Source of the DNA: Pandoraea pneumonica
GTDB lineage: Bacteria > Pseudomonadota > Gammaproteobacteria > Burkholderiales > Burkholderiaceae
Direction of reading: 5' to 3'
Assembly (NCBI RefSeq): GCF_902459645.1
Contig: NZ_CABPSK010000007.1
Coordinates: 124,001-188,000 of the forward strand
Length of the DNA stretch: 64,000 nucleotides
This document shows, in pieces, positions 911 to 16,294 of the stretch (its first letter is position 1; each line of letters starts with the position of its first letter). The position numbers and the translations under genes are program-made. Under the pieces are notes generated by a model, which saw nothing but the letters and a program-made list of their open reading frames with translations, had not been told where the DNA came from and did not search any database.

Positions 911-2314
911 TTACTCGAAGTTGCGGCGGCGCACTTGCGCAGCGACCAGCGCGTACATGATGCCTGCGATTGCCGTGCATCCACAGAACGTCGTGACGAT
1001 GGCGTATCCCATTGCCATCGGGCCGCTAAAGAACAGATGCGAGATCGTGGCGGCTACCGTCGGCCCCAGCGCAAGGCCGAGCAGGTTCTGCACGAGGAAG
1101 AACAGCGACGAGAGCTTGCCCATCATGCGTCCCGGCGTGATCTGCGCCATCGTGGCCCCGGCGGACGACGGGATCGGGCTGGCAAAGAACGTGTGGCACA
1201 CGTACAGCACGACGGCCAACAGATGGTTATCCGTGAAGGCAAGAAAGAACGTGGCCAGACAAGAAAGGAACGTCGAGACCATGGCCACTTCGAGCGGCGC
1301 TGCACGGCGCCCACGGCGCGACAGCCGGTCCATGACCGCGCCGAGCAGCACCAGCCCCGCAGGGACCGACACCATCATGAGCGGCCCGAGCATGCGGCCA
1401 ATGCTCGGCAGCGGCAACTGCCAAGCGCGTGCGATCACCGTCGGCAGCCAAGCGTTGAAGCCCGAAATCGCCATGGCATAGAGCGTGGCAGCCGTCCACA
1501 GCGGCACGTAGAGACGCCATTCGCTGCGCATGAAGCGCAGGGCATCGCGATAGCCCGCTGCGTCAGCGGCTTGTTGCTTCACCGCGCGTTTCGGTTCACG
1601 CAACGTCAGCATCAGCAGCGCAAGCGGAATGCCCAACAACCCTGGCACCACAATCACAAACTGCCACGGGCGGAGCGAACCGAGGATCGGCCAGTGCGCG
1701 ACATCGCCGCTCTGCGACAAGCTGAGCAGCGTGCCGCCGACAAACAGCGAGAAGCCCACACCGAGCATCGGCCCCATGTGATAGATGCCGAACGCGCGGC
1801 CACGCCGGTCCGGTGGAAAGGTGTCGCGAATCATCGAGTAGGCCGCCGGTTGCAACGCGCCCTCCCCGATACCGATGCCCGTACGGCCAAGAAAGAGCTG
1901 AACGTAGTTCGACGCAAAGCCGCACAGCACCGTCATCGACGACCAAACGAACACGGCCCAACCGATGATGCCGCGACGGCTGAAGCGGTCGGCAAGATAC
2001 CCGGCGGGAATGCTGAACGTGCTGTACAGCACAACGAACGAGAGCCCGAGCAACAGACTCATCTGGAAGTCGCTCACCCCCAGTTCTTGTTTCAGTGGAC
2101 CAACCACGAGCGAGAGCGACGAACGATCGATAAACGACAGCACGAAGATGGCAGTGAGCACGATCAGCATGTACCAATCGCGCAGGCCGACACGGCGTGT
2201 TGCGCCGCCGGAGGTCTGTGCGGGAGATGCTGCGGATGGCGCCGACGGCGGGGCGTGCGCGGGATTTTGCGGGGGCGCGTTCGCCGGGCTGGCGTCCATC
2301 GCGGATTGAGTCAT
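911..2314 (-). CDS. MFS transporter, likely aromatic-acid uptake or efflux
   Basis: A 467-residue major facilitator superfamily protein with twelve predicted hydrophobic segments after a roughly 45-residue Ala/Pro-rich cytoplasmic N-tail. The MFS motif A loop is visible (GYLADRFSRR, after the second segment). The start at 2314 is chosen because GGAGGC lies four bases upstream; a start four codons earlier would ignore this site. It is divergent from the extradiol dioxygenase/aldolase operon. Its candidate promoter (TTGACA-16-TATAGT) carries one of the five shared palindromes at 2407-2419. I infer that it moves the aromatic substrate of the neighbouring pathway. Overall similarity is to Spinster-like/general MFS members, and no substrate can be read from the sequence. 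Confidence 0.85.
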   Translation of the reverse strand: MTQSAMDASPANAPPQNPAHAPPSAPSAASPAQTSGGATRRVGLRDWYMLIVLTAIFVLSFIDRSSLSLVVGPLKQELGVSDFQMSLLLGLSFVVLYSTFSIPAGYLADRFSRRGIIGWAVFVWSSMTVLCGFASNYVQLFLGRTGIGIGEGALQPAAYSMIRDTFPPDRRGRAFGIYHMGPMLGVGFSLFVGGTLLSLSQSGDVAHWPILGSLRPWQFVIVVPGLLGIPLALLMLTLREPKRAVKQQAADAAGYRDALRFMRSEWRLYVPLWTAATLYAMAISGFNAWLPTVIARAWQLPLPSIGRMLGPLMMVSVPAGLVLLGAVMDRLSRRGRRAAPLEVAMVSTFLSCLATFFLAFTDNHLLAVVLYVCHTFFASPIPSSAGATMAQITPGRMMGKLSSLFFLVQNLLGLALGPTVAATISHLFFSGPMAMGYAIVTTFCGCTAIAGIMYALVAAQVRRRNFE

Positions 2315-2406
2315 GTCTGCCTCCAATATCGTTATCGTAATGAGTGTTGCGCACGACTTGCGGCGCGTGAACGGGCGCTAACCCGCACTACGACGCGGCA
2401 TAACAC

Positions 2407-2438
2407 GCATACTATATGTCCGTTATGACCAGTGTCAA
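2407..2438 (-). promoter_or_regulatory. Promoter and GntR-type operator (site A) for the MFS gene
   Basis: On the minus strand TTGACA (2433-2438) is followed after 16 bp by TATAGT (2411-2416). The palindrome GCATACTATATGT (2407-2419) covers the -10 box. The same half-sites, GCATA-N3-TATG(C/T), recur at four other promoters of this locus. Binding by the GntR/FCD regulator at 5868-6617 would block transcription; that link is inference. Confidence 0.65.
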
Positions 2439-2466
2439 ACACGACGAAAAAATAGTTGAGGGGGCG

Positions 2467-2521
2467 TTGACAACCCAAATACAACCCGCCTATTCTTCGA
2501 CAAAACACGCATACAGTAATA
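2467..2521 (+). promoter_or_regulatory. Promoter and operator (site B) for the dioxygenase-aldolase operon
   Basis: TTGACA (2467-2472), an 18-bp spacer and TATTCT (2491-2496) form a good sigma70 promoter. The operator variant GCATACAGTAATA (2509-2521) lies just after the expected start site. Its right half is degenerate. The -35 context GGGCGTTGACA is shared with the Rieske-operon promoter at 8042-8074. Confidence 0.62.
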
Positions 2522-2541
2522 CAAAACAAGGAGGCGCACGG

Positions 2542-3564
2542 ATGGCACGGATCGTTTTTGCGATGGGGTGTTCTCACGGGCCGATGCTCGCGACCCCGCC
2601 TGAGATGTGGCACTTGCGCGCCGGTGCGGATCGCAAGAATGCGCAGCATTGGTTTCGGGGCGAGTCGATGCCTTACGACGCGCTGCTGGCCGCGCGTGCC
2701 GATGAGTCGCCGCGCTTCTCGCAGGCCATCCAGCCCGAAGCCAAGCAGGCGAGTTTCGATGCTTGCCAGCGCGCACTCGACACGCTCGCGGACCGGTTCG
2801 CCACCGCGCGCCCGGATGTGGTGATCTTGTTGGGTAACGATCAGCGCGAAGTCTTCAAGGAAGATCTGACGCCGTCCATCACCGTGTACGCGGGCGAACG
2901 CATCGAGAACATTCCGCTGACCGAAGCGCAGGTGGAGCGTCTGCCCCCGGGGGTTGCCGTGGCGGAAGCAGGACACTGTCCGCCGCAAGGGGCCACGTAT
3001 CCGGGCTCGCCGGGCGTGGCCGACGCGCTCATCCGGTCGCTGTGCGATGCGCACTTCGATGTCGCGCGCTCCGTGCGTCTGCCGGGTGGCGAGGATCGCC
3101 AGCACGGCATTCCTCACGCCTTTGGCTTTCTCTACCGGCGCATCATGCGCGATCTGCCGCCACCGAGCGTGCCGATCTTCCTGAACGTGGGTGTCGCCCC
3201 CAACCAGCCGCGCGCGGCTCGGTGTCTGGCGTTCGGCCACGCGTTGCGCGCCGCCATCGAGCGCTTGCCCAGTGACATGCGCGTAGCGGTGCTCGCCTCC
3301 GGTGGCATGACCCATTTCGTCATCGACGAAGCCCTCGACTGGCGCGTGTTGAATGCGTTCGCCGCGCGCGACGAGGTTGCGTTGGCCAACATTCCCGAGT
3401 CGTACTTCAACGGCAATACGGCAGAGATCAAGAGCTGGTATCCGCTCGCGGCCGCCATGCACGACATCGATTGGCACATGACGCTCGTGGACTACGTGCC
3501 GTGCTATCGCACCGAAGCGGGCACGGGCAACGCGATGGCGTTCGCCTACTGGGCGCCCGCCTGA
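2542..3564 (+). CDS. Class III extradiol ring-cleavage dioxygenase (LigB/LigZ/DesZ type), copy 1
   Basis: A 340-residue single-chain enzyme of the LigB superfamily, which opens catecholic rings next to the diol using Fe(II) and O2. The start at 2542 has AAGGAGGC upstream and gives the same length as its paralogue at 9512. Visible landmarks are SHGPM (His12), GNDQRE (99-103), PHAFGF (His192, aligned with the usual catalytic His), ASGGMTHFVIDE (His258, Glu263) and a C-terminal VDYVPCYR...GTGNAM block. Where MhpB and LigB carry the second iron-ligand His (NDH or PDH), this protein has NDQ. It is first in a four-gene operon with three RraA-family proteins. Substrate is unknown; a carboxylated or methoxylated catechol is plausible. 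Confidence 0.82.
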   Translation: MARIVFAMGCSHGPMLATPPEMWHLRAGADRKNAQHWFRGESMPYDALLAARADESPRFSQAIQPEAKQASFDACQRALDTLADRFATARPDVVILLGNDQREVFKEDLTPSITVYAGERIENIPLTEAQVERLPPGVAVAEAGHCPPQGATYPGSPGVADALIRSLCDAHFDVARSVRLPGGEDRQHGIPHAFGFLYRRIMRDLPPPSVPIFLNVGVAPNQPRAARCLAFGHALRAAIERLPSDMRVAVLASGGMTHFVIDEALDWRVLNAFAARDEVALANIPESYFNGNTAEIKSWYPLAAAMHDIDWHMTLVDYVPCYRTEAGTGNAMAFAYWAPA

Positions 3565-3628: not shown

Positions 3629-4309
3629 ATGAACGCTCCCGCTGACGCCGTCTCACGACTGCGAAAACTCGACGCCTGCGCCGTCTCGGATGCCCTCGAC
3701 AAACTTGGCCTGCCGAGCACTGTGAGCCATCTTCCGCAACGCGCCGGCTCGCGACGCATCGCTGGCCGCGCGATCACCGTCAAGCTCGTCGCTGCCGCCG
3801 ACGCACCGCCCGTCAGTGGCACGCCGCGCCATCTCGGCACCACCGCTGTGATGCTCGGAGGCGCCGACGACATCATCGTCGTCGAGCAGCGCACGGGACT
3901 CGATGCAGGAAGTTGGGGCGGCATTCTGTCGCTCGCGGCAGTGCAACGCGGCATTGCAGGCGTCGTTGCCGACGGCCCCGTGCGCGATATCGACGAGGCC
4001 CGCGAGTACGACCTGCCGGTGTTCTGCCGCGATCTGACGGCACGGACTGCTCGCTCGCGCGTGGTCGAAGCGGGTACCAACATTCCCATCCATGTGGATG
4101 GCTTCGACGTGGCTCCGGGCGATTTTGTGATTGCCGATAACAGCGCCGTGGTTTTCGTCAGCGCTTCGGACATCGGTCGCGTGCTCGACGCCGCTGAACA
4201 GATCGCCGCACGAGAGGCCGCCATGGCCAAAGCGTTGCTCGCCGGTCAGCCCGTCACCGAAGTGATGGGCGCTAACTACGAACACATGCTGCATACCAGC
4301 GCCGCATAA
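3629..4309 (+). CDS. RraA-family protein 1 (aldolase-like, atypical Gly at acidic site)
   Basis: A 226-residue member of the RraA/HMG-CHA aldolase family. These proteins cleave 4-hydroxy-4-methyl-2-oxoglutarate or 4-carboxy-4-hydroxy-2-oxoadipate to pyruvate and can decarboxylate oxaloacetate. The core is present: GSWGG (94-98) and DGPVRD (115-120). However, the acidic residue of the aldolase D/E-X20-R-D motif is Gly98 (Gly98-X20-Arg119-Asp120), unlike its two downstream neighbours. An RBS (AAGGACA) precedes the ATG. It lies 64 bp after the dioxygenase gene and 57 bp before the next RraA gene. Aldolase activity is doubtful for this copy; a role in heteromer assembly or a different substrate is possible. 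Confidence 0.8.
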   Translation: MNAPADAVSRLRKLDACAVSDALDKLGLPSTVSHLPQRAGSRRIAGRAITVKLVAAADAPPVSGTPRHLGTTAVMLGGADDIIVVEQRTGLDAGSWGGILSLAAVQRGIAGVVADGPVRDIDEAREYDLPVFCRDLTARTARSRVVEAGTNIPIHVDGFDVAPGDFVIADNSAVVFVSASDIGRVLDAAEQIAAREAAMAKALLAGQPVTEVMGANYEHMLHTSAA

Positions 4310-4366: not shown

Positions 4367-5029
4367 ATGAATCAACCGCAAGACACTAACGTCGCACGTG
4401 CGGCGGCACTCGACACGGCCACGCTAAGCGATGCCCTCGATCGGCTCGGCATCGCCGGGCAATGTCATCAGGTCAAGGCGCGCGACAGTGGTTTTCGCAT
4501 GGCCGGTCGTGCCTACACCCTGCAATATGGTCCGGCCAGCACGCCGCCCGGCACCGTCGGCGACTACATCGACGATATTGCGCCGGGCACCGTACTCGTG
4601 CTCGATAACGGCGGACGCGAAGACTGCACGGTGTGGGGCGACATTCTCACCGAGATCGCCCATCGGCGCGGCATCGCGGGCACGGTGATCGACGGCATCT
4701 GCCGCGACGTCTCGCTCGCACTCGAACTCGGCTATCCGATCTTCAGCCGAGGCAACTGGATGCGCACCGGCAAGGACCGCGTGCAGGTCGAAGCGGTCGG
4801 CGTGCCCGTGAACATCGGTAACGCGCGCGTGAATCCCGGCGACATCGTGCGCGGCGATGCCGACGGCGTGATTGTGATTCCGAGCGTGCATGAGGCCGCC
4901 GTGCTCGATGCGGCGGAGGCCATCGACGCGGCAGAGCGTCATATCCGCGAAGCGGTGCGCGGTGGCAAACGTCTGGACGATGCCCGCAAGGATCTGGGCT
5001 ATCACCAGTTGCAAACGCGCCAACGCTAA
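4367..5029 (+). CDS. RraA-family HMG/CHA aldolase-like protein 2
   Basis: A 220-residue RraA-fold protein. It keeps the class II pyruvate-aldolase signature: Asp92 (in VWGD), twenty residues, then Arg113-Asp114 (in DGICRD). This fits metal-dependent cleavage of a 4-hydroxy-2-oxo acid to pyruvate, the end step of protocatechuate/gallate 4,5-cleavage-type pathways. The start at 4367 follows AGGAGA at good spacing. The stop is 11 bp from the next RraA gene, so the two are probably translated from one message. It is only distantly similar to copies 1 and 3, which argues against recent duplication. Confidence 0.82.
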   Translation: MNQPQDTNVARAAALDTATLSDALDRLGIAGQCHQVKARDSGFRMAGRAYTLQYGPASTPPGTVGDYIDDIAPGTVLVLDNGGREDCTVWGDILTEIAHRRGIAGTVIDGICRDVSLALELGYPIFSRGNWMRTGKDRVQVEAVGVPVNIGNARVNPGDIVRGDADGVIVIPSVHEAAVLDAAEAIDAAERHIREAVRGGKRLDDARKDLGYHQLQTRQR

Positions 5030-5040: not shown

Positions 5041-5742
5041 ATGGACGTCACTTCGCACGCAGCATCGCTCAAGTCGCACTATCCGTTCGCCCGTCTGCCG
5101 ACGGTCAATCTCGATTTCACACGGCCCGATCCGGCATTGCTCGCGCGAGTTGCAGCGCTGCCTGTTGCCACGCTTCACGAGGCCGCGGGCAAGGTGGGTG
5201 CGCTGCCCGCCGCCATCAAGCCGATGGCGCCGTCGTTTCGCGTATGTGGCCCGGCAATGACCGTGGATGCACCACCGGCGGACAACCTCTGGCTGCATCG
5301 GGCGCTGGCGCTGGCCAGTCCCGGCGATGTGCTGGTCGTTCGCGTCGCGGGGCATTACGACGCCGGCTACTGGGGCGAAGTGATGTCGACCATGGGTCGC
5401 GCGCGCAAGCTCGGCGGACTCGTGATCGACGGGTGTGTGCGCGACGGCGCGATTCTGGAGCGCTTCGGCTTCCCGGTCTTTGCACGCGGCCTGTGCATTC
5501 GCGGCACGGGAAAGGACTTCGATGCACGCGGGTGGATCGGCTATCCGGTGCGCTTCGAAGACATCGTCATTGCGCCGGGCGACGTGGTCGTGGGCGATGC
5601 CGATGGGGTTGTCGTATTGCCGCAAGCATCGCTCGACGCGGTGGTGAATGCGGGTCACGAGCGCGAGGCGAAGGAAGCGGACATTATTCGCCGCCTCGAA
5701 GCCGGTGAAGCGTCGTTGGATATCTACGGATGGAACCGCTGA
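5041..5742 (+). CDS. RraA-family HMG/CHA aldolase-like protein 3
   Basis: A 233-residue RraA-family protein with the full motif Glu113 (in YWGE) - X20 - Arg134-Asp135 (in DGCVRD), as in LigK/GalC-type 4-carboxy-4-hydroxy-2-oxoadipate aldolases. It has about 25 extra N-terminal residues compared with copies 1 and 2. AAGGAGAC stands just before the ATG. It is the last gene of the operon, and a strong terminator follows at 5839. Of the three paralogues this one is most like a catalytic LigK in motif terms; substrate assignment is inference. Confidence 0.82.
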   Translation: MDVTSHAASLKSHYPFARLPTVNLDFTRPDPALLARVAALPVATLHEAAGKVGALPAAIKPMAPSFRVCGPAMTVDAPPADNLWLHRALALASPGDVLVVRVAGHYDAGYWGEVMSTMGRARKLGGLVIDGCVRDGAILERFGFPVFARGLCIRGTGKDFDARGWIGYPVRFEDIVIAPGDVVVGDADGVVVLPQASLDAVVNAGHEREAKEADIIRRLEAGEASLDIYGWNR

Positions 5743-5838: not shown

Positions 5839-5869
5839 GAACCGCGTCGGGGGACGCGGTTCTTTTTTT
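5839..5869 (+). terminator. Rho-independent terminator of the dioxygenase-aldolase operon
   Basis: A 10-bp perfect stem (GAACCGCGTC / GACGCGGTTC) is followed by seven T residues. The T-tract touches the stop codon of the convergent gntR gene (stop at 5868-5870). Confidence 0.9.
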
Positions 5870-6617
5870 AGCGCTTGGCAGCGGCCTTGGCGGCAGTGTC
5901 GCGTGCTGCCAGATACTTCTCGCGCAGCACCGTGAGGTTCTGCGAGACAACCTGACGTGCGGCCTCGTCATTGCGCGCGCGAATGGCATTGAGCAGTTCG
6001 CGATGGCGTTTGATCACGCCCTTGGCAACCGTCTCAGTGGTGTACGGCGTCAGCGAGCGATAGAGCACGTGCACGATCGCCTGCATCATCGCTTCGAGAA
6101 AGTGGTTGTGCGAAGCATGTGCCACCGCGTTACGAAACGCCATCGACGCCTGAGTGAACTCGTGCTGCGTCCCCACGAGCGCCTGCGCATTCTCCAGCGC
6201 CAATTCGAGCGCCTCGATGTCCTCTGCCGTGGCCGCCTGAGCGGCGAGTCCGGCGACGGCGACTTCTATCGTGAACTGCGCGTCGAAGATCTCCTCAGCC
6301 GACATCCCCACGAGCTTAAGCTGAATCGCGAGTGCTTCCGAGAAGAGCGCCGGATTGCCCTGGGCAATGCGCGCGCCGCCGCCAGCACCCGTGCGGATAT
6401 CGACGACGCCAAGCGCTTGCAGACGGCCCAGTGCTTCGCGAATCGGCAGACGGCTCACGCCGAACTGTGTGGCGAGGTCGTTTTCTGAGCCGAGGAAATC
6501 ACCCGGGGCGAAGTGCCCGTCGAGCAATGCCTCCTTGATCTGACGTTCGACGCGCATGGCGGTCGATTCGGCGCGGCCGAGTTTCCAGACGGGTGTTTCT
6601 GCTTTTTCGCGTGGCAT
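5868..6617 (-). CDS. GntR-family transcriptional regulator, FCD (FadR) subfamily
   Basis: A 249-residue DNA-binding regulator. Residues 20-85 form a GntR winged helix-turn-helix (SENDLATQFGVSRLPIREALGRLQ), and residues 95-225 an all-helical FCD effector domain with spaced His residues typical of a metal/carboxylate pocket. AGGAA precedes the ATG at 6617. It sits in the middle of the catabolic locus, between the aldolase operon and cobW. FCD regulators bind short palindromes, and five matching 13-bp palindromes occur at promoters of this locus, one of them (6660-6672) in front of gntR itself. I infer an effector-relieved repressor with autoregulation; the effector is unknown. Confidence 0.88.
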   Translation of the reverse strand: MPREKAETPVWKLGRAESTAMRVERQIKEALLDGHFAPGDFLGSENDLATQFGVSRLPIREALGRLQALGVVDIRTGAGGGARIAQGNPALFSEALAIQLKLVGMSAEEIFDAQFTIEVAVAGLAAQAATAEDIEALELALENAQALVGTQHEFTQASMAFRNAVAHASHNHFLEAMMQAIVHVLYRSLTPYTTETVAKGVIKRHRELLNAIRARNDEAARQVVSQNLTVLREKYLAARDTAAKAAAKR

Positions 6618-6647: not shown

Positions 6648-6676
6648 ATACTACATTGCGCATAGCCTATGTCGGC
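6648..6676 (-). promoter_or_regulatory. Candidate gntR promoter with operator (site E)
   Basis: On the minus strand CCGACA (6671-6676), 17 bp and TAGTAT (6648-6653) form a weak promoter. The palindrome GCATAGCCTATGT (6660-6672) lies in its spacer and overlaps the cobW stop codon. Its half-sites match the other four operators exactly and only the central three bases differ. Confidence 0.45.
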
Positions 6677-7770
6677 ACGCGCTGCGCTTCGGCGAGATGC
6701 GCCAGCAAGGCTTCGCGCGGCACGTTGCGCATGATGAAGACGAAGCGTGAGTGTCGTTCGGTATTCGTCGGCTCGGCGCGCACGGGCCATGCCGCCAAGA
6801 TCTCCGGCGGATGTAGACGATGCTGCACGCCGTGGACGACGACGGGGCCGTCTTCGCCCTGCACATCGACCAACCCCTTCAAACGAAGTAAGTCATCGCC
6901 GTGATGAAATGCGACGGCACCGAGCCAACTACTGAGCACGTCCCATTCGAGGGGCGCCTCTAGTGCGATGCAATGGGCGGCGACGTCTGCGCGGTGAGGT
7001 CCGTCATTGCCGGGCAATAGGGTGAGCGGCGCGCAGTCGGCGCACGCTTGCTCGCCATGGGTATGGCACACGGATCGATAGCGCTGCGACGTCGTATCGT
7101 GCCAGCGCAAGGTCGCATTCGCCACGTTGTCTGCCACGTGCATGCCTAGGCCCAGCACGTCTGACGGTGCAATGCGGCCGTGCTCGCACAGATGCTGCGA
7201 CGCGGCGGGATTTCGCTGGGCGAGCGCTGCGCGAAGTGCGTCGAGCGCGTCGAGTCCGTCACTGCCGACGAGATCCGTCTTCGTGATGAGCAGCCGGTCG
7301 GCGAGCAGCACCTGGCGCTGCGCTTCCGGTTGCTGCGCAAGTTGGGACATCGCATGCACGGCGTCGACCGTGACGATGACCGCATCGAGCGTGAATCGCT
7401 TCGACAGCGCAGCGTCACGCAACAACGTCGCCACCACAGCGCTGGGGTCCGCCAGCCCGCTGGTCTCGATCACGATGCGCGAGAACGGCACGATGTCGCC
7501 TGCTTCCAACTGCGAATGCAGCGACAGTAACGTCTCGCTCAAATCGTCGCGCACGGCGCAGCACACGCAGCCGCTCTCCAGCAACACCGTATGCGCGTCG
7601 AGCGTCTCGACGAGCAGATGGTCCAGCCCCACTTCACCGAACTCATTGACGATGACCGCCGTGTCGCTCATGCCCGGGTGCGCGAGCAATGCCCGCAACA
7701 AGGTGGTCTTGCCGCTTCCGAGAAAGCCCGTAAGAAGCGTGACCGGCAAGCGTGTGTCGGTAGCAGACAT
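6667..7770 (-). CDS. CobW/COG0523-family GTP-dependent metallochaperone
   Basis: A 367-residue G3E-family GTPase. It shows the Walker A GFLGSGKTT (15-23), the metal-binding CVCC motif (68-71, in SGCVCCAVRDDL), ETSGLADP and the guanine-specificity TKTD motif, followed by a CobW C-terminal domain with several His residues. Such proteins deliver Zn, Co or Fe to target enzymes. The start at 7770 (MSATDTRLPV) gives the normal N-terminus; in-frame ATGs lie further upstream (for example 7830) and cannot be excluded. It lies 49 bp upstream of gntR on the same strand, with a candidate promoter carrying an operator at 7908-7920. Supply of metal to the dioxygenases or the amidohydrolase is an attractive but unproven role. 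Confidence 0.83.
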   Translation of the reverse strand: MSATDTRLPVTLLTGFLGSGKTTLLRALLAHPGMSDTAVIVNEFGEVGLDHLLVETLDAHTVLLESGCVCCAVRDDLSETLLSLHSQLEAGDIVPFSRIVIETSGLADPSAVVATLLRDAALSKRFTLDAVIVTVDAVHAMSQLAQQPEAQRQVLLADRLLITKTDLVGSDGLDALDALRAALAQRNPAASQHLCEHGRIAPSDVLGLGMHVADNVANATLRWHDTTSQRYRSVCHTHGEQACADCAPLTLLPGNDGPHRADVAAHCIALEAPLEWDVLSSWLGAVAFHHGDDLLRLKGLVDVQGEDGPVVVHGVQHRLHPPEILAAWPVRAEPTNTERHSRFVFIMRNVPREALLAHLAEAQRVPT

Positions 7771-7897: not shown

Positions 7898-7926
7898 AGT
7901 ATAATGCGCATACAGTATGTTTGTAA
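7898..7926 (-). promoter_or_regulatory. Candidate cobW promoter with operator (site C)
   Basis: On the minus strand TTACAA (7921-7926), 17 bp and TATACT (7898-7903) suggest a promoter. The palindrome GCATACAGTATGT (7908-7920) fills the spacer. A forward-reading TATAAT (7900-7905) overlaps the same spot, so the site could also affect transcription towards 8131. The rest of the 360-bp gap between cobW and the Rieske gene holds only the site D promoter. Confidence 0.5.
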
Positions 7927-8130: not shown

Positions 8131-9519
8131 ATGCTCAGCGAGGCAAAGAACCAGTTGTTGACGCAGGTCGGGCCAGGCACGCCGATGGGCGATTTGCTGC
8201 GGCGTTACTGGCATCCGATTGGCGCCGAGAGCGAGTTCGACGAGATTTCGGTGCGGCCTGCCCGGCTGTTCGGCGAAGACCTCGTGCTCTACAAGGACCT
8301 GTCGGGCAACTACGGCCTGGTGGATCGTCAATGCCCGCACCGTCGCGCGGATCTGGCCTACGGCTTCGTGGAAAAGTGCGGACTGCGCTGCAACTATCAC
8401 GGCTGGCTGTACGACGAGAAGGGTCAGTGCACCGAGCAGCCGTATGAAGACATTGCCAACCCGCAGGTCCGCCTCAAAGACCGCATCAAGATCAAGTCGT
8501 ACCCGGTGCAGGTCAAGGCCGGCATGATCTGGGCCTACATGGGGCCGCTGCCCGCACCGCTCGTGCCGACGTGGGAGCCCTTCACGTGGGCGAACGGCTT
8601 CCGTCAGGTGGTGATCTCCGAAGTGCCCTGCAACTGGTTCCAGTGCCAGGAAAACTCCATCGACCCCGTGCATTTCGAGTGGATGCATTCGAATTGGAGC
8701 GTGCGGCTGCGCGGCGATACCGGCCCCTACTCCCCGACGCACACCAAGCTCGGCTTCGAGGAATTCGAGTACGGCCTGATCTACAAGCGTGTTCGCGAAG
8801 ACACCGACGAGAAGCATCCGCTGTGGGCCGTGGGGCGTTTGGCGTTGTGGCCGAATGTCTTCTGTTTGGGCGATCACTTCGAATGGCGTGTGCCCATCGA
8901 CGACGAGAACACGCTGTCGATCACCTGGGCCTTCAACCGCGTGCCGCGTGAGCGCGAGCCGTATGTGCAAGAGAAAATCCCAGCGTGGTACGGCCCGGTC
9001 AAAGACGAAGCGACTGGGCAGTGGATCTCCAGCCACGTGATGAATCAGGACTTCGTTGCGTGGGTCGGGCAAGGACGTATTGCCGATCGGACGCAGGAGA
9101 ATCTCGGGGCTAGCGATCGAGGCATCGCGATGTTGCGTCGGCATTTCTTCGATGAACTGGACGCCGTCGCACAGGGCCGAGATCCGAAGGGGCTAGTGCG
9201 CGATGAGGCCAAGAACGTACGCATCGAACTGCCGGTTGCAGCGCGCCGTCTGTTCGTCGACGGGCTGACGCGGGACGAGCTCAAGGCGCATCCGATCATC
9301 GGCAAGCACCTCAAGGAATACGCATTTCAGGCTGGCCAGCCGGAAGCCATCAAGCGCGCGTTCCACGACGCGATGGGCGTGCGTATCGACGCGCAGGGCA
9401 ATGTGGTCGATGCCGATTTGACGGGGCAAGCCGATCAAGCGGGTCAGACCAACTCATTGCACGAGTCGAGTCGGCAGACGTACCCGATTCATCCGATCCG
9501 GGACGAGCGCCATGACTAA
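8131..9519 (+). CDS. Rieske [2Fe-2S] aromatic oxygenase/O-demethylase subunit 1
   Basis: A 462-residue Rieske non-heme iron oxygenase of the phthalate 4,5-dioxygenase/vanillate-DDVA O-demethylase (LigX) group. The N-terminal VGPGTPMGDLLRRYWHP is typical of this group. The Rieske cluster ligands are Cys68-His70 and Cys87-His90. The catalytic iron region reads ENSIDPVHFEWMH, with Asp178, His181 and His186. GGAG lies six bases before the ATG at 8131. The last 30 residues are polar and variable. It overlaps the following extradiol dioxygenase gene by 8 nt, implying translational coupling. Electrons probably come from the reductase at 12990. Hydroxylation versus O-demethylation cannot be decided from sequence. 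Confidence 0.87.
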   Translation: MLSEAKNQLLTQVGPGTPMGDLLRRYWHPIGAESEFDEISVRPARLFGEDLVLYKDLSGNYGLVDRQCPHRRADLAYGFVEKCGLRCNYHGWLYDEKGQCTEQPYEDIANPQVRLKDRIKIKSYPVQVKAGMIWAYMGPLPAPLVPTWEPFTWANGFRQVVISEVPCNWFQCQENSIDPVHFEWMHSNWSVRLRGDTGPYSPTHTKLGFEEFEYGLIYKRVREDTDEKHPLWAVGRLALWPNVFCLGDHFEWRVPIDDENTLSITWAFNRVPREREPYVQEKIPAWYGPVKDEATGQWISSHVMNQDFVAWVGQGRIADRTQENLGASDRGIAMLRRHFFDELDAVAQGRDPKGLVRDEAKNVRIELPVAARRLFVDGLTRDELKAHPIIGKHLKEYAFQAGQPEAIKRAFHDAMGVRIDAQGNVVDADLTGQADQAGQTNSLHESSRQTYPIHPIRDERHD

Positions 9520-10534
9520 GATCGTGCTGGCCATGGGCACGTCCCATGGGCCGATGCTCTCCACCCCACCCGCCGACTGGGATCTGCGCGTACGCGCCGA
9601 CCGGGCCGAGTTAGCGCATCCGTTTCGCGGCCAGACCTACAGCTTCGAGGAACTGATGACGCTGCGTGCGAGCGAAGACCTCGAAGCTCAGGTCACGCTC
9701 CCCGCACGCGAGGCACATGCGGCGCGCTGCAATGCCGCCCTTGAAGTGCTTTCGCAGGCCTTGCATGATGCGGCGCCCGACGTCGTCGTGATCGTCGGCA
9801 ACGATCAGCGCGAAGTCTTCGGGCCCGCGATCACGCCCGCGTTGTGGCTCTATGGCGGCGAGTCCGTTTTCGACGAGCCGGTGAGCGCAGCGCGTCTGGC
9901 GAAGATGCCGCCAGGCATCTCGATCTCGTCGGCGGCCATCAAGCCGGGGGCGCGCACCGAGTACCCAGCGCATGCCCCGCTCGCGCGGCATCTCGCGACG
10001 GCATTCACCGAGTATGGGCACGACATCACGCTCTCGACGGAAGTCCCGCAGCGCGGCAACGACGGCCCGACCGGCATGCCGCACGCCTTCGGCTTCGTCT
10101 ATCAACGGCTCATGCATGGCCGCGTGCCACCGCATGTGCCGATCATGCTCAACACGTTCTATCCGCCCAATCAGCCACGCGCCACGCGCTGTGTCGACCT
10201 TGGGTTGGCCCTGCACGACGCACTGAGCGCGTGGCCTGACGACGTGCGTGTCGCGCTGATCGCATCCGGTGGGTTGAGCCACTTCGTCATCGACGAAGCC
10301 TTCGACCGGGCATTGCTCGACGCGATGGCGCGCGGCGATAACGCGTATCTGCGCAGCATCGACGAGACGTTGCTGCAATCGGGCACGTCGGAAGTAAAGA
10401 ACTGGCTGCCGGTCATTGCCGCGGCGAATGCCGAAGCGATGACGATGCAACTGGTCGACTACGTGCCGTGCTACCGCTCGGCGGCCGGCACGGGCAATGC
10501 CATGGGCTTCGTGCTCTGGCACCCGGCCAACTAA
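9512..10534 (+). CDS. Class III extradiol ring-cleavage dioxygenase (LigB/LigZ/DesZ type), copy 2
   Basis: A 340-residue paralogue of the protein at 2542-3564, with the same landmarks: SHGPM (His12), GNDQRE (from Asn97), PHAFGF (His191), ASGGLSHFVIDE (His257, Glu262) and SEVKNW...VDYVPCYRSAAGTGNAMGF. It also has Gln (residue 99) where most LigB-type enzymes have the second iron-ligand His. The 8-nt overlap with the upstream Rieske gene suggests sequential action: the Rieske product is ring-opened here. Copies 1 and 2 differ clearly in the 105-185 region, so they may cleave different intermediates. Confidence 0.82.
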   Translation: MTKIVLAMGTSHGPMLSTPPADWDLRVRADRAELAHPFRGQTYSFEELMTLRASEDLEAQVTLPAREAHAARCNAALEVLSQALHDAAPDVVVIVGNDQREVFGPAITPALWLYGGESVFDEPVSAARLAKMPPGISISSAAIKPGARTEYPAHAPLARHLATAFTEYGHDITLSTEVPQRGNDGPTGMPHAFGFVYQRLMHGRVPPHVPIMLNTFYPPNQPRATRCVDLGLALHDALSAWPDDVRVALIASGGLSHFVIDEAFDRALLDAMARGDNAYLRSIDETLLQSGTSEVKNWLPVIAAANAEAMTMQLVDYVPCYRSAAGTGNAMGFVLWHPAN

Positions 10535-10597: not shown

Positions 10598-11875
10598 ATG
10601 CTTTCCAGGCAAGACAACGAAACCCTCACCCGCGTTGGCCCCGGCACGCCCATGGGCGAACTGTTCCGCCGCTTCTGGCTGCCCGCGCTGCTCTCCGACG
10701 AGATCGCCGAGCGTGACGGCGCCCCCGTGCGCTTGCGCTTGTTGTGCGAAGACCTCGTCGCGTTTCGCGATACCGAAGGACGCGTGGGCATCGTGGACGC
10801 GTACTGCGCTCACCGCCGCGCCGGCCTCTTCTTCGGCCGTAACGAAGACTGCGGCTTGCGTTGCGTTTATCACGGCTGGAAGTTCGATGTGAACGGACAG
10901 TGCGTGGAGATGCCCTCCGAGCCGCACGAGAATCCGCAAACGCATAACGTGCGGATCAAGGCGTATCTCACGGCCGAGCGCAACGGTGTGGTGTGGGTGT
11001 ACATGGGGCCGCGCGAGTCGGTGCCCGCGTTGCCGGACTTCGAATGGTCGCGGCTGCCCGAGCGGCAGCACACGGCGACCAAGCGCCTGCAATCGTGCAA
11101 TTGGGCGCAGGCCGTCGAAGGCGGGATCGATTCGAGCCATATCTCGTTCCTGCACAGCCGCACCGAACCGGTGGCAGGGGCGCCGAGCAATCGCTATCAC
11201 GCGTCAGACCGTCATCCGGTGTTCGAAGTCAGCGACGCCGGGCATGGCCTCGTGATCGCGGCACGCCGTCATGCCGAACCCGGCACGTACTACTGGCGCG
11301 TCACGCAATTCCTGCTGCCCTGCTACACGATGATTCCGCCCGTAGGCAATTTTGCGGAGTCCAGCCAAGAGCCGTATGACGGTCACGCCTGGGTGCCCAT
11401 CGATGACGAGACCACGTGGACGTGGTCGTTCAGCGCAAGCCCTGCGCGTGCGTATCGCGACGAGGAAGTCGCGTTTCGCGGTGGACGTCAGGGCTTCTGG
11501 GGCCCCGTCGACGACGGCTACCAGCCGTTGCTGCATCGGGGCAACGACTATGCCATCGACCGGACGCGACAGCGCACGTCCAACTTCACCGGCATCGAGG
11601 GCATCCCGAATCAGGACGCCGCCGTGCAGGAAAGCATGGGGCCCATCGTCGATCGGTCGCAGGAGCGGCTGGGCGCGTCCGATCGCGGCATCGTGCGCTT
11701 TCGCCGGTTGATGCTGGGTCTGGCGCGCGATCTCGCACAAGGGCAGGCGCCCGCCTGTGCGTCCGACGGCGCGGTCTATAACGTTCGTCCCGTGTCGATG
11801 CTGCTGCCGCAGGAAACACCCGTGCTCGAAGGCGCAGCCGCATTACTGCGCGGGGCACCTAGGCAGGCGTCTTGA
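10598..11875 (+). CDS. Rieske [2Fe-2S] aromatic oxygenase/O-demethylase subunit 2
   Basis: A 425-residue Rieske oxygenase, close to phthalate 4,5-dioxygenase oxygenase and LigX-type O-demethylases (VGPGTPMGELFRRFWLPALL at the N-terminus). The cluster ligands are Cys70-His72 and Cys89-His92. The first motif reads CAHRR instead of the more usual CPHRR. The mononuclear iron site is GGIDSSHISFLH, with Asp178, His181 and His186. A perfect AAGGAGG stands six bases before the ATG. It is clearly diverged from the Rieske protein at 8131, mainly after residue 100, which suggests a second substrate or a second step. The LigY/LigJ-like gene follows 76 bp downstream. Confidence 0.87.
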   Translation: MLSRQDNETLTRVGPGTPMGELFRRFWLPALLSDEIAERDGAPVRLRLLCEDLVAFRDTEGRVGIVDAYCAHRRAGLFFGRNEDCGLRCVYHGWKFDVNGQCVEMPSEPHENPQTHNVRIKAYLTAERNGVVWVYMGPRESVPALPDFEWSRLPERQHTATKRLQSCNWAQAVEGGIDSSHISFLHSRTEPVAGAPSNRYHASDRHPVFEVSDAGHGLVIAARRHAEPGTYYWRVTQFLLPCYTMIPPVGNFAESSQEPYDGHAWVPIDDETTWTWSFSASPARAYRDEEVAFRGGRQGFWGPVDDGYQPLLHRGNDYAIDRTRQRTSNFTGIEGIPNQDAAVQESMGPIVDRSQERLGASDRGIVRFRRLMLGLARDLAQGQAPACASDGAVYNVRPVSMLLPQETPVLEGAAALLRGAPRQAS

Positions 11876-11951: not shown

Positions 11952-12971
11952 ATGATCATCGATTGCCATGCCCACGTAAGCGCACCGACCGAACTGTGGG
12001 CCTATAAGGCCAGCCTGCTGGCGAGCCGTGGCTCGCACGGCCGCGGGCGCATCAATGTTTCCGACGACGAGATTCGCGCCGCCGCCAATCGCGCAGAGAC
12101 GTGGCCGAAGGGGCATCTCGATTACATTCGCGATCACGGCACCGACCTGCAACTGGTCTCGCCGCGCCCTTTCCAGTTGATGCAATCGGAGAAGCCCGCG
12201 AAGCTGGTGCACTGGTTCACCGAAGAATGCAACAACATCATCTATCGCCAGACGCAACTGTTCCCGCAGACGTTCGCCGGTGTCGCCGGTTTGCCGCAAA
12301 CGGCAGGCGACCCCATCGAACAGGCCCTGCCCGAGCTCGAGCGTTGCATCAACGAACTGGGCTTTGCCGGGTGTCTGCTCAACCCCGATCCGTTCGAGAA
12401 CGGTGTCGCCGAAGCGCCGCCGCTGGGTGATCGTTACTGGTATCCGCTGTACGAAAAGTTGTGCGAGCTGGATGTCCCCGCGCACATTCACGGCACCGGA
12501 TCGCGCTCGGAACGCGTGCCGTACTCGTTGCACTTCATCAATGAAGAGACGATTGCCGTGTTCGGCCTGGTGAACTCCGACGTGTTCAAGGACTTCCCGA
12601 ATCTGAAGATCGTCGTGAGCCATGGTGGCGGTGCTGTGCCCTATCAGATTGGCCGCTTCGACGCACCGACGCTGCGCCGCCCGAACGGTCAGCGCTTCTC
12701 GGAGCGTCTGCGCAATTTGTATTTCGACACCGTGCTGTACACCGAAGAGGCGCTTTCGCTGCTCATCAAAACGGTTGGGGTCGATCGCTGCCTGTTTGGC
12801 ACGGAATGCCCCGGCGTCGGCTCGGCGGTCAATCCGGCGACGGGCCGCTCGATGGACGACGTGCGCTCGCTCATCGACAAGCTCGACTGGCTGAGCGCAG
12901 ACGACCGCCGCAAGATCTATGAGGACAACGCGCGTCACGTCTTCCGTCTGCCCGCCAAGGTCGCGGCATAA
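11952..12971 (+). CDS. Amidohydrolase-superfamily meta-cleavage enzyme (LigY/LigJ-like)
   Basis: A 339-residue amidohydrolase-superfamily (ACMSD-like) TIM-barrel enzyme. The metal ligands expected for the LigY/LigJ branch are visible: His6 and His8 (DCHAH), His178 or His180 (AHIHG) and Glu285 (FGTECPG), plus HGGGAVPYQIGRF (from 224). Known relatives are LigY, a Zn-dependent C-C hydrolase of the dehydrodivanillate meta-cleavage product, and LigJ, 4-oxalomesaconate hydratase. From memory the N-terminal and 180-230 segments resemble LigY more. GGAG precedes the ATG at 11952. It lies downstream of two Rieske oxygenases and one extradiol dioxygenase, so it probably acts on a ring-opened product. 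Confidence 0.78.
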   Translation: MIIDCHAHVSAPTELWAYKASLLASRGSHGRGRINVSDDEIRAAANRAETWPKGHLDYIRDHGTDLQLVSPRPFQLMQSEKPAKLVHWFTEECNNIIYRQTQLFPQTFAGVAGLPQTAGDPIEQALPELERCINELGFAGCLLNPDPFENGVAEAPPLGDRYWYPLYEKLCELDVPAHIHGTGSRSERVPYSLHFINEETIAVFGLVNSDVFKDFPNLKIVVSHGGGAVPYQIGRFDAPTLRRPNGQRFSERLRNLYFDTVLYTEEALSLLIKTVGVDRCLFGTECPGVGSAVNPATGRSMDDVRSLIDKLDWLSADDRRKIYEDNARHVFRLPAKVAA

Positions 12972-12989: not shown

Positions 12990-13973
12990 ATGAACATGTC
13001 CGACTTCACCGACACGCTAATCGTTAACGTCGCGCGACGCGAGCAGGAGACGGCCGCTATTGCCGTCTTTGAATTGCATGCGTCTGGCGACAGCGCGCTG
13101 CCGCCGTTCACGGCTGGCGCTCATATCGAGTTGTTCCTGCGCGACGGATTATCGCGATGCTATTCGCTACTCAACGATCCGGGCGAGCGGCATCGCTATG
13201 TCATTGGCGTGAACCACGATCCGGCCAGCCGTGGCGGCTCGGCTTTCGTGCACGAGCATCTGCACGAAGGCGCGATGCTCAAGATCAGTGCGCCGCGCAA
13301 TCACTTCCCGCTCGACGAGACCGCCGCGAGCACCGGACATACCGTGCTCGTGGCTGGGGGGATCGGGGTCACGCCGTTGTTGTCGATGGCCGCGCGTCTT
13401 GAAGCCATGCAACGCCCTTGGACGCTGCATTACTGCGCACGTAGTCGGGAGACTGCGGCGTTCGCGGCGCGGCTGGAGCGCAGCGCTTTCGCACACGGGC
13501 GCGTCGAGTGGCACTTCGACCGTGCGCCGGGACAGGGGTCGCTCGACCTCGGGCGGCTTGTCGATGACGTGTCCGCTGGCACGCATCTGTATTGCTGCGG
13601 ACCGTCGCCGATGTTGAAGGCGTTCGAGGCGGAGGTGGCACGTCGCCCCGATTGCCACGGACATGTGGAGTATTTCGCGGGCGTTGGCGCGCCCGAAGGT
13701 TCCGCTGGGCAATACGAAGTGATGCTCGCCAAGAGCGGAAAGATTGTCGTGGTCAAGCCGGGAAAAACGATGCTCGATGCGTTGCTCGACGCCGGTGTGG
13801 ACGCCCCGTATTCTTGTCGCGAAGGCGTTTGCGGGACGTGCGAAGTCGGTGTACTCGAAGGCACACCCGAGCATCGCGACCTCGTGTTGAGTCAAGACGA
13901 ACGGGCCAGCGGTCGCACCGTCATGACCTGCTGCTCCGGCTGCCGGGGCGACCGACTGGTGCTCGATCTGTAG
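12990..13973 (+). CDS. PDR-type oxygenase reductase (FMN, NAD, plant-type [2Fe-2S])
   Basis: A 327-residue phthalate dioxygenase reductase/VanB-type flavoprotein that passes electrons from NAD(P)H to Rieske oxygenases. Its order is a flavin-binding barrel (RCYSLLNDP), an NAD domain (AGGIGVTPLL; CGPSPML) and a C-terminal plant-type ferredoxin with Cys ligands in CREGVCGTC and a later Cys near MTCCSGC. Only 18 bp separate it from the amidohydrolase gene. It is the only reductase in the locus, so it probably serves both Rieske oxygenases. The start may be the second Met at 12996. Confidence 0.9.
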   Translation: MNMSDFTDTLIVNVARREQETAAIAVFELHASGDSALPPFTAGAHIELFLRDGLSRCYSLLNDPGERHRYVIGVNHDPASRGGSAFVHEHLHEGAMLKISAPRNHFPLDETAASTGHTVLVAGGIGVTPLLSMAARLEAMQRPWTLHYCARSRETAAFAARLERSAFAHGRVEWHFDRAPGQGSLDLGRLVDDVSAGTHLYCCGPSPMLKAFEAEVARRPDCHGHVEYFAGVGAPEGSAGQYEVMLAKSGKIVVVKPGKTMLDALLDAGVDAPYSCREGVCGTCEVGVLEGTPEHRDLVLSQDERASGRTVMTCCSGCRGDRLVLDL

Positions 13974-14024: not shown

Positions 14025-15485
14025 ATGCAAAGCGGTTTCACTCATACCATCGACGGTCGCGGCGAGCCGAGCGACACCTCGTTCGATGTCATCAATCCGG
14101 GGACAGGCGCGCCGTTTGCCGCGTGTCCGGATGCGTCTCGCGATCAACTGGATCGTGCCGTGGCGGCTGCGCGTCGTGCGTTCGGTACGTGGCGCGAGAC
14201 TACGCCTGCCGAGCGGCGGGACATGCTGCGTGGATTTGCCGAGGCGCTCAAGGGGCGAAGCAAGGAAATCGCCACGTTGCTGACTCGCGAGCAAGGCAAG
14301 CCGTTTGCGCGGGCGCAGGATGAGCTCAATCGTGCGTTCGCCAATCTGGAAGGGCTGCTGGCGATCGATCTGAAACCCGAGTTGTTGCGCGATAACGAGC
14401 GTGGTCACGTCGAGTTGCAATATCACCCGCTTGGGGTCGTCGGCGCGATTACGCCGTGGAATGTGCCCGTGTTGCTCGCGTTGCCGAAGATCACGCAGTC
14501 GCTCTACACGGGTAACACCATCGTGCTCAAGCCGTCGCCGTACACACCGCTCACTACGCTGCTTATTGGCGAGATCGCGCGCGAGCATTTCCCGCCCGGT
14601 GTGGTGAACGTCGTCGCCGGGGGGAATGATCTGGGCGCTTGGATGACGGAGCATCCGGGCATCGACAAGATTTCGTTCACTGGGTCTGTTGCGACCGGTA
14701 AGCGGGTGATGGCGAGTGCGGCCAGCACGCTCAAGCGCGTGACGCTGGAGCTTGGCGGCAACGATGCGGCGATCGTGCTCGATGACATCGATGTGAAGGC
14801 ACTCGCGCCGCGTCTGTTCTGGGCTGCGTTCGGGAACAGCGGTCAGATTTGCATGGCGATCAAGCGTTTGTATGTTCATGAGAAGGTTTATGACGCTTTG
14901 TGTGACGCGTTGGTGGAGATCGCACGCCGGGTGAAAGTTGGTGAAGGCTTCGAAGAGGGTGTGCTGATGGGACCGGTGCAGAACCGCATGCAGTACGAGC
15001 GAGTGCTGGAACTCATCGAGGACACGCGACGCCAGGACGCACGTATTTTGTGTGGCGGCGAAGCGTTGCCGCGCGCTGGGTATTTCATTGCGCCGACCAT
15101 CGTGGCGGATATCGCCGAGGGGACGCGACTGGTGGACGAGGAACCGTTCGGGCCGGTGCTGCCAGTGATTCGGTTCAGCGATGTGGATGATGTGGTGCGG
15201 CGCGCGAATAGCACGCGTTTCGGACTGTCCGGGTCGGTTTGGAGTGCGGATCCTGCGCGTGCGCGAGCGATTGCGCAACGGCTCGAAGTGGGCACGGCGT
15301 GGATTAATCACCACGTCGGCGTGGAATACGACGTGCCGTTCGGTGGCACGAAAGAGTCGGGTATCGGGCGTGAGTACGGCGCGCAAGGGCTGAAGAATTA
15401 CACCGAGACGCGGGCGGTGAGTGTGCCGGTTTTGCCGCCGATGGCGCCGATGGCCCCTGCGGCCCCTACCGCCCCGCAGCGCTGA
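14025..15485 (+). CDS. NAD(P)-dependent aldehyde dehydrogenase
   Basis: A 486-residue ALDH-superfamily enzyme that oxidises an aldehyde to its acid. It has the general-base Glu in LELGGND and the catalytic Cys in NSGQICMA. The cofactor-domain SFTGSVATG and the EEPFGPVLPV segment are also present. GGAGGA precedes the ATG at 14025, which is preferred over an earlier in-frame ATG. The C-terminus carries a short Pro/Met/Ala-rich tail (PMAPMAPAAPTAP). In the locus it could oxidise a semialdehyde intermediate or an aldehyde released by the oxygenases; this is inference. Its 3' half uses more T-ending codons than its neighbours. Confidence 0.88.
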   Translation: MQSGFTHTIDGRGEPSDTSFDVINPGTGAPFAACPDASRDQLDRAVAAARRAFGTWRETTPAERRDMLRGFAEALKGRSKEIATLLTREQGKPFARAQDELNRAFANLEGLLAIDLKPELLRDNERGHVELQYHPLGVVGAITPWNVPVLLALPKITQSLYTGNTIVLKPSPYTPLTTLLIGEIAREHFPPGVVNVVAGGNDLGAWMTEHPGIDKISFTGSVATGKRVMASAASTLKRVTLELGGNDAAIVLDDIDVKALAPRLFWAAFGNSGQICMAIKRLYVHEKVYDALCDALVEIARRVKVGEGFEEGVLMGPVQNRMQYERVLELIEDTRRQDARILCGGEALPRAGYFIAPTIVADIAEGTRLVDEEPFGPVLPVIRFSDVDDVVRRANSTRFGLSGSVWSADPARARAIAQRLEVGTAWINHHVGVEYDVPFGGTKESGIGREYGAQGLKNYTETRAVSVPVLPPMAPMAPAAPTAPQR

Positions 15486-15514
15486 GCGCGCGTACGAATC
15501 GTTCAGGAGAGGAT

Positions 15515-16294
15515 ATGTCCACTACGAATGCGCCGGGGCACCCCGGTATGAGTCTTTCAGCACGCGCCGATGCGTTAGAACATCGGATGATCGAGGAGCT
15601 CGACTGCAAGATCGTTCGCTCAGTGATTTTCACCTCGGGCGATCGCGATCCGACAGCACCGATCATGCCGCCGCCGGGCGGAAAACCCGATCCGCGGCAC
15701 TTTCTAATGGGTGACGATCCGCGTCTGCAAAAGATGCCGGAACGCCCCACGCTGCTTGATTTCTTCCGTCATCGGTTTGCACCCGCGAATCACCTGCTGC
15801 AAAGCGCTACGCACGCGCTGAAGGCTGGGCATGACGAGAAGACGATTCTGGCCTGTCTGCTGCACGACATCAGCGTGTCAGGGTTCATTCGCGCCGATCA
15901 CGGCTATTGGGGAGCGCAGTTGATTGCGCCGTATGTCGATGAGGAAGTCAGTTGGGCGATTCGGTATCACCAGGCGCTGCGGTTCTTTCCGGATGCTTTT
16001 GTCGGCTACGACTATCCTGAAGCGTATATCCGGTACTTTGGCGGGGATTATGAGCCGGAAGACTACGTTAAGGCGGACTGGGAGTACGCGCGGAATCACA
16101 AGTGGTATATGACTAGCCGACTGATCACGCTGAATGACATCTATTCGTTCGACCCGAACGCCGAAGTGAGCTGGGATCCGTTTATTGACATCATCGGACG
16201 GCATTTTAAACAGCCGAAGGAAGGGCTCGGGTTCGACGGATCAGCGTCGGCGCATATGTGGCGGACTATTATCTGGCCGACGAAGTTTTTGTGA
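15515..16294 (+). CDS. HD-domain protein with PhnZ-like metal pattern (putative diiron oxygenase or hydrolase)
   Basis: A 259-residue HD-superfamily protein. Candidate metal ligands are His93 (NHLLQSATHA), His117-Asp118 (LLHDI), His129 (DHGYWGAQ), His152 (RYHQALRFF) and Asp208 (LNDIYSFD). Their order and most spacings resemble the mixed-valent diiron oxygenase PhnZ, but the Asp118 to His129 interval is about 10 residues shorter. The surrounding pattern H..Q.A..A...G...LLHDI...HG..GA is also PhnZ-like. It has an N-terminal extension of about 80 residues and a C-terminal one of about 50. GGAG precedes the ATG. It is last in the Rieske operon. Function is unknown: an oxygenase in the catabolic route or a phosphohydrolase are both possible. 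Confidence 0.7.
   Translation: MSTTNAPGHPGMSLSARADALEHRMIEELDCKIVRSVIFTSGDRDPTAPIMPPPGGKPDPRHFLMGDDPRLQKMPERPTLLDFFRHRFAPANHLLQSATHALKAGHDEKTILACLLHDISVSGFIRADHGYWGAQLIAPYVDEEVSWAIRYHQALRFFPDAFVGYDYPEAYIRYFGGDYEPEDYVKADWEYARNHKWYMTSRLITLNDIYSFDPNAEVSWDPFIDIIGRHFKQPKEGLGFDGSASAHMWRTIIWPTKFL

Follow-up and report, generated by a model that had tools for sequence, protein, structure and literature searches.

The route from 5,5'-dehydrodivanillate (DDVA) through LigX, LigZ and LigY is characterised in Sphingobium (Parasphingobium) lignivorans SYK-6. There the intermediate 5-carboxyvanillate (5CVA), which is 4-hydroxy-5-methoxyisophthalate, is decarboxylated by LigW. The 5-5 biphenyl link is one C-C bond that survives lignin depolymerisation (PMC12997858), and oligomer pathways were known at the time in sphingomonads only, according to a 2020 ISME J. 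paper (PMC8027834). SYK-6 LigY releases 5CVA and 4-carboxy-2-hydroxypentadienoate (CHPD) (PMC6874591). A DDVA pathway proposed for Paenibacillus sp. B2 (mhqPOD) would follow the same chemistry, namely demethylation, extradiol cleavage, C-C hydrolysis, hydration and an HMG aldolase, but where the locus described here has LigX, LigZ and two RraA proteins, it has an azoreductase, MhqO and UxuA (PMC12673573). This locus occupies positions 911–16294 of the window, a 64,000-nucleotide stretch of the 5.8 Mb genome of Pandoraea pneumonica (contig NZ_CABPSK010000007.1, positions 124,001 to 188,000, forward strand). Judged by sequence, its LigX/LigZ/LigY core very probably serves a DDVA-type pathway, and the block as a whole is likely to be catabolic for DDVA or a close 5-substituted vanillate.

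All 14 genes that an earlier note on this DNA had named were found in this interval, with coding-type third-codon-position GC and with Pfam or NCBIfam matches in domain scans of the proteins (E up to 0.001), so that the gene set stands as first read. Gene starts were picked by upstream context and show small shifts relative to the longest reading frames. The genes are as follows.

911–2314, minus strand: MFS transporter (PF07690), candidate inner-membrane aromatic-acid importer, in the Pandoraea and Rudaea block
2542–3564, plus strand: LigB1, extradiol dioxygenase (PF02900), probable functional LigZ
3629–4309, plus strand: RraA1, RraA family, 56% identical to a gene beside SYK-6 ligY
4367–5029, plus strand: RraA2, RraA family, mostly adjoining RraA1, 74% identical to a gene beside SYK-6 ligY
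5041–5742, plus strand: RraA3, HMG/CHA aldolase-like (PRK09262, 176.7 bits; PDB 3noj, E 2e-32)
5868–6617, minus strand: FCD-type GntR regulator (domain scan), in the Pandoraea block
6667–7770, minus strand: CobW-family GTPase (PF02492/PF07683), possible metal chaperone
8131–9519, plus strand: Rieske1, LigXa ortholog by tree (62% to SYK-6 LigXa), predicted DDVA O-demethylase oxygenase
9512–10534, plus strand: LigB2, second extradiol dioxygenase (PF02900), adjoining Rieske2
10598–11875, plus strand: Rieske2, isophthalate-dioxygenase-like (45% to PDB 9ina), candidate 5CVA O-demethylase
11952–12971, plus strand: LigY, meta-cleavage C-C hydrolase (Amidohydro_2; E 1e-157 to PDB 5vn5)
12990–13973, plus strand: one-piece NAD-binding/ferredoxin reductase (PF00175, PF00111), presumed donor to both oxygenases
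14025–15485, plus strand: aromatic aldehyde dehydrogenase (ALDH), counterpart of SYK-6 SLG_07790 (56%)
15515–16294, plus strand: HD-domain metalloprotein (PF01966)

The gene order is the same in eight other Pandoraea genomes, with far-end gaps in some fetched stretches (LigB1 is partial in L027 and L028 but whole in L031, which shares its genome with L027; the stretch from G004 stops short of the MFS gene). Rudaea (Rhodanobacteraceae) has all 14 genes, split into two blocks. Because all 14 recur in Rudaea, their grouping is not due to chance.

The amidohydrolase had been called LigY/LigJ-like in the earlier note, and only the first half of that label holds. In a PDB search it scores 528 bits against SYK-6 LigY (5vn5) vs 238 bits against 4-oxalomesaconate hydratase, and the identity between the two is 66–67%. 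A scan of genome contigs gave at least 555 loci; of the best 80, 35 fall at 57–96% identity and 45 at 39–43%, with none between; the lower group is termed LigJ-like here, a label for the group as a whole and not for its single members. Residues H6, H8, H180 and E285, which we take to be the zinc ligands, are invariant in four aligned LigY sequences. The SYK-6 DDVA locus (L044) has the order LigB, RraA1, RraA2, LigY, a Rieske gene on the opposite strand and ALDH, in agreement with the numbering that a review (PMC12997858) tabulates for ligZ, ligY and ligXa; its genes were matched to published numbers by position, the ALDH to SLG_07790 likewise. SLG_07790 oxidises aromatic aldehydes, for example vanillin and syringaldehyde (PMC5353671). 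Identities between L044 and the window are 56% for RraA1, 74% for RraA2, 66% for LigY and 56% for ALDH; the L044 Rieske protein is 62% identical to Rieske1 and 32% to Rieske2, and its LigB 46% to LigB2 and 44% to LigB1. Rieske1 lies within the LigXa clade with support of 100/100 in one tree and 99/98 in a tree with other rows. The Rieske cluster and iron-site residues are retained in both oxygenases, and neither LigB1 nor LigB2 shows variation at its candidate metal and catalytic positions. The resemblance to the DDVA logic of Sphingobium proposed in the earlier note was thus right and is stronger than expected, with LigXa, LigY, RraA1, RraA2 and ALDH all having counterparts at the SYK-6 DDVA locus. 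The same note had named placement of the genes inside phthalate or gallate pathways as the contrary outcome; this does not occur for the DDVA-set genes, and Rieske2 alone falls among phthalate/isophthalate-type oxygenases in the tree.

The two loci also differ. SYK-6 uses separate ligXc and ligXd, whereas this locus has the one-piece in-cluster reductase as presumed electron donor; the regulator is the MarR-type DdvR there and a GntR protein here; and DdvT and DdvK there contrast with a porin and another MFS transporter here. The MFS gene gave no tblastn match in the SYK-6 stretches L044, L146 and L147, in which the presence of ddvK was left unchecked. The window genome contains no LigW ortholog, and its cluster includes the extra LigB2-Rieske2 genes as well as RraA3, HD and CobW. 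A second SYK-6 LigY cassette (L176:8839–19768, ~ 2.099–2.110 Mb) carries LigY (65%), LigB, RraA1-3, an other Rieske oxygenase and an amidohydrolase, followed by a gene that resembles formate dehydrogenase by reading only. This cassette and the Burkholderiaceae cassettes L190–L194 share with the locus the association of LigY, LigB, RraA1, RraA2 and RraA3, but their oxygenase belongs to another Rieske clade (placed by the SYK-6 row in the tree) and their stretches hold no LigXa-level match.

The D/E-X20-R-D motif marks HMG/CHA aldolase activity in RraA-family proteins. It is present in RraA2 (D) and RraA3 (E), whereas RraA1 fails it, a glycine replacing the acid. The first motif residue is G in 30/30 RraA1 orthologs, D in 28/28 RraA2 orthologs and E or D in 16/16 RraA3 orthologs, in row sets that are not independent because they include eight close Pandoraea copies and the same locus twice for L027/L031, L044/L146 and L047/L152. 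RraA3 falls just under the NCBIfam PRK09262 cut-off of 179 bits, and RraA1 and RraA2 fall far under it. Of the 22 LigY-clade loci that extend 5 kb or more to either side of LigY, 15 have both RraA1 and RraA2 nearby, vs none of 25 loci in the LigJ-like group; one of the 15, P. commovens, is the block itself. Over all 35 LigY loci, many of them in short stretches, RraA1 occurs in 21, RraA2 in 17 and both in 15. RraA1, RraA2 and RraA3 stand beside LigY in all eight cassettes from other Burkholderiaceae, which represent eight of 13 places outside Pandoraea (L195 repeats L057) and carry three oxygenase types. In L190–L196 the LigY-RraA1-RraA2-RraA3 set accompanies two further oxygenase/dioxygenase types, an arrangement of a constant back end with swappable front ends. 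It is fairly probable from this association that RraA1 and RraA2 act on CHPD, as candidates for its hydration and cleavage. The other side of the balance is that 7 of the 22 well-flanked LigY loci lack both genes at the thresholds used (in Rudaea they are in its other block) and that some LigY loci carry RraA1 or RraA2 singly. The alkene hydration of SYK-6 is listed as not identified in the table of a 2025 paper (PMC12673573).

Two other Burkholderiaceae, G130 and G187, indicate which LigB partners LigXa. Each has one stretch with LigXa (71%), LigY (61–62%), RraA1-3, a reductase and HD (74–75%), and a single LigB that is 64% identical to LigB1 and 43–45% to LigB2 and lies in the LigB1 clade. 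Because the sole LigB of these LigXa-LigY clusters is a LigB1 ortholog, LigB1 is probably the partner of LigXa and the functional LigZ; LigB2-Rieske2 is therefore the added pair. What had been described as doubled Rieske and extradiol enzymes does comprise two of each, but is better seen as one complete LigX/LigZ/LigY set with this pair added. Against the assignment of LigB1, both LigB proteins lie outside the LigZ clade in the trees, and approximately unbiased tests left joining that clade unrejected for LigB1 (p 0.383) and for LigB2 (p 0.164). LigB2 forms a clade of its own with Pandoraea and Rudaea rows.

The palindrome ACGCATACAGTATG and its mirror occur before LigB1, CobW and Rieske1.

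2405–2418 and 2507–2520, plus strand: two GntR-operator-like sites before LigB1, 2 mismatches each
7906–7919 (1 mismatch) and 8060–8076 (exact), plus strand: GntR-operator-like palindromes between CobW and Rieske1, from the motif search

The window holds 5 matches at ≤ 2 mismatches vs 0.14 expected, for a motif itself derived from the window, and the examined Pandoraea relatives carry the motif as well. Rudaea has the LigB2-Rieske2-LigY-reductase-ALDH-HD block separate and inverted, with an exact motif copy directly before LigB2 (0.04 expected at ≤ 2 mismatches; 7/200 shuffles with any match). Because of this exact copy before the separate block, the added pair appears to be under the same GntR-type control as the remaining genes. 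The G130 stretch has no motif copy at ≤ 2 mismatches, and the G187 stretch has one, with 2 mismatches, ~ 2 kb behind HD; the GntR proteins of both differ from that of the window (39–46%).

LigB2 adjoins Rieske2 not only in the window but also in the eight other Pandoraea and in Rudaea. In the 26 genomes searched, Rieske2 matches of at least 81% are confined to the nine block-bearing Pandoraea and Rudaea; the only block-free Pandoraea among them, G019, gave 47%. Among solved structures, 9ina and 7fhr score best with Rieske2. 9INA is the isophthalate dioxygenase (IPDO) of Comamonas testosteroni KF1, whose two substrate carboxylates are held by R234 and H257; alteration of either residue abolishes activity (PMC12445078). 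R234, H257, G172 and I246 of IPDO are retained in all six aligned Rieske2 rows, with T175 replaced by S and with further changes V178I and L198N. A search of the window genome with LigW found no ortholog, the best match being 26% identical at 46 bits (a SYK-6 paralog of 37% identity reached 228 bits with this query). Since 5CVA is itself an isophthalate and LigW has no closer counterpart than this in the window genome, the role favoured for the pair is that Rieske2 O-demethylates 5CVA and LigB2 then cleaves the product. That LigB2-Rieske2 acts on 5CVA is plausible, if slightly less probable than the contrary. In a variant, Rieske2 may convert 5CVA to 3-O-methylgallate by oxidative decarboxylation.

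Several observations weigh against a role in 5CVA turnover. Rieske2 is 45% identical to 9ina, 47% to 7fhr and 43% to 7fjl, a phthalate dioxygenase, so that the isophthalate likeness is not exclusive; 7fhr, L178 and L183 share the R-H pair, and 7fjl has N for H257. The pocket differs from that of IPDO at F249V, I294F and F333I, and the fork joining Rieske2 to IPDO has an unstarred support of 85/71. G130 has the LigXa set with neither a LigW match at 1e-8 nor a Rieske2 ortholog. In a separate search of 24 genomes for LigW, none matched in Sphingosinicella G034, which does have LigXa, its 43% Rieske2-like gene lying elsewhere in the genome. Two of the nine block-bearing Pandoraea (G004, G027) have a 41–42% LigW homolog. 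LigW is present in the LigXa genomes G032 (100%), G044 (88%), G037 (85%) and G035 (52%), and at 59% in G046. The pair as a simple replacement of LigW failed as a general rule on the case of G130. Kinship of Rieske2 with the oxygenase of the second SYK-6 cassette was likewise rejected, the two belonging to separate clades. The open-licence literature gave, among the matches listed, no report of 4,5-dihydroxyisophthalate or 5-carboxyprotocatechuate as a catabolite.

From orthology, linkage, co-inheritance, the shared operator-like motif and conserved catalytic residues we infer every substrate of the following route. ALDH would oxidise an aldehyde to the acid, and Rieske1 (LigXa) with the one-piece reductase would remove one methyl group. 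LigB1 would then cleave the new catechol beside the aryl bond, and LigY would split the ring-cleavage product into 5CVA and CHPD. RraA1 and RraA2 would hydrate CHPD, perhaps as a mixed complex, and the aldolase RraA3 would yield two pyruvates. In the added pair, Rieske2 would O-demethylate 5CVA to 4,5-dihydroxyisophthalate for extradiol cleavage by LigB2, and LigY and the RraA proteins could be reused for the second ring, without decarboxylation by LigW. In its fullest form, Pandoraea and Rudaea would open both DDVA rings via one LigY, with no vanillate or protocatechuate, and RraA1/RraA2 would be a paired CHPD hydratase with one 'acid-less' half, a new activity of the RraA fold and the step missing in SYK-6; taken as a whole, this proposal is rather unlikely to hold.

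The strongest alternative is that two front ends share one back end, LigB2-Rieske2 opening another 5-substituted vanillate or isophthalate, not 5CVA, and drawing on the same LigY and RraA proteins. The pairing of RraA1-3 with another Rieske clade in the second SYK-6 cassette is consistent with it, as is the use of two further oxygenase types by the other Burkholderiaceae cassettes. However, the second pair has no LigY of its own, and Rieske2, which retains the isophthalate-anchoring residues, lies outside the clade of those other cassette oxygenases that the tree includes. We regard this alternative as possible but on the unlikely side.

An ordinary DDVA cluster is a less probable explanation, and an unlikely one. 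5CVA would then be decarboxylated by an enzyme other than LigW, either HD or a UbiD, and the second pair would be spare or act on the second methoxyl group. The HD protein belongs to a family of ~ 260 residues in which an H-HD-H-H-D pattern and numerous Tyr and Asp residues are invariant; H93, H117-D118, H129, H152 and D208 are invariant in an alignment of 21 sequences. It is encoded in LigY clusters of Rudaea, Sphingosinicella, S. canadensis, a Bordetella metagenome-assembled genome, G130 and G187, and homologs occur in 13 of 21 genomes searched (L131–L145), some away from LigY. In favour of a decarboxylase role, HD accompanies LigY where LigW is missing (most block-bearing Pandoraea, Rudaea, G034, G036 and G130), whereas the LigXa genomes without a cluster HD (G032, G035 and G044) have LigW at 52% or more. 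A UbiD has also been proposed for Paenibacillus (PMC12673573). This pattern is broken by S. canadensis (G037), which has both HD and LigW, and by G187, which has HD and a 36% LigW homolog, and G036 is a metagenome assembly that may be incomplete. The AlphaFold2 model of HD (6 sequences) reached a pLDDT of 45.8, too poor for fold comparison, and the only functional hint is a weak one to TmpB/PhnZ.

The block is bigger than first reported, extending upstream of and across the left edge of the window.

L184:10371–13205, ~ 0.8–3.6 kb upstream of window base 1: flavoprotein (TAT-type, L-amino-acid-oxidase-like), small cytochrome c and RidA protein (signal-like start), forming the left end of the block
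1–687, plus strand: 3' part of a porin (PF13609) in the accessory block, complete at L184:13618–14688

The flavoprotein, cytochrome c and RidA protein have no role in the DDVA scheme, which counts against it. They would fit a nitrogen-bearing aromatic dimer from which they strip the amine first. The flavoprotein travels with the block, being present in 3/3 block-bearing Pandoraea tested and giving no match at 1e-60 in 6/6 others, with a 38% homolog beside the Rudaea block; among solved structures an L-amino acid oxidase is its best match. Such a substrate is nevertheless quite improbable, as the LigXa orthology points to an O-methyl group and a reading of gene list and first residues for the G130 stretch revealed no gene of this kind. 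A pathway of the protocatechuate 4,5-, gallate or phthalate type, which would include a LigB, an RraA3 and a phthalate-type Rieske enzyme, is very improbable, the gallate and protocatechuate readings having been rejected because LigB1 and LigB2 match the respective dioxygenases weakly and the hydrolase scores as LigY and not LigJ, and the 14 genes showing in the scans no LigC-type dehydrogenase domain and only one Amidohydro_2 gene.

The block is accessory and horizontally mobile in Pandoraea. A LigY match at 1e-80 occurs in 10 of 32 Pandoraea (one genome per species; several of the loci named here are from metagenome assemblies and possibly incomplete); nine, the window included, have this block, and G019 has a different cassette. 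It sits at differing chromosomal places. Between-species homology stops directly behind HD (window 16287–16297) in 8/8 comparisons. On the left it starts at about base 9998 of L184, ~ 4 kb before the window, in L186–L188, where the block lies elsewhere, and in L185, which has the same neighbourhood, it continues upstream after a short gap; it runs through the porin in the other species. The sspB-sspA genes (window 16609–17780) lie directly behind the block and are present in 32/32 Pandoraea, far from the block in most other carriers. A fixed insertion site at ssp was rejected, since the distance from ssp to LigY varies: within ~ 20 kb in G000, G015 and G016, ~ 65 kb in G021 and more than 1 Mb in G012, G013 and G027, while in G004 and G009 the two lie on separate contigs. 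In Rudaea, which we take to be a gammaproteobacterium, the 14 proteins are 56–88% identical to those of the window, 11 of them at 75% or more, and these identities imply that the block moved between classes. Plasmid searches with LigY and Rieske2 gave nothing close to the block, the top matches being 66% for LigY and 50% for Rieske2.

Some neighbours of LigY elsewhere were seen in passing. A cytochrome-P450-like gene (L197:1898–3334, by its first residues only) lies beside the G130 LigXa-LigY set and is a possible alternative demethylase. Three clusters encode near LigY a large protein of similar kind, whose start resembles that of thiamine enzymes (by reading only), at L036:3692–5437, L047:7957–9696 and L058:14817–16526.

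The earlier note had supposed a route not described for Burkholderiaceae. Among the matches listed from the open-licence literature there was no primary report of such a pathway in the family, but LigY-clade genes extend beyond the genus, to 22 of 398 Burkholderiaceae genomes in 4 of 25 genera. A second, horizontally mobile version of the DDVA route outside the sphingomonads, predicted here with a one-piece reductase, would offer new parts, and it points to candidates for two steps, the hydration of the C5 fragment and the processing of 5-carboxyvanillate without LigW.

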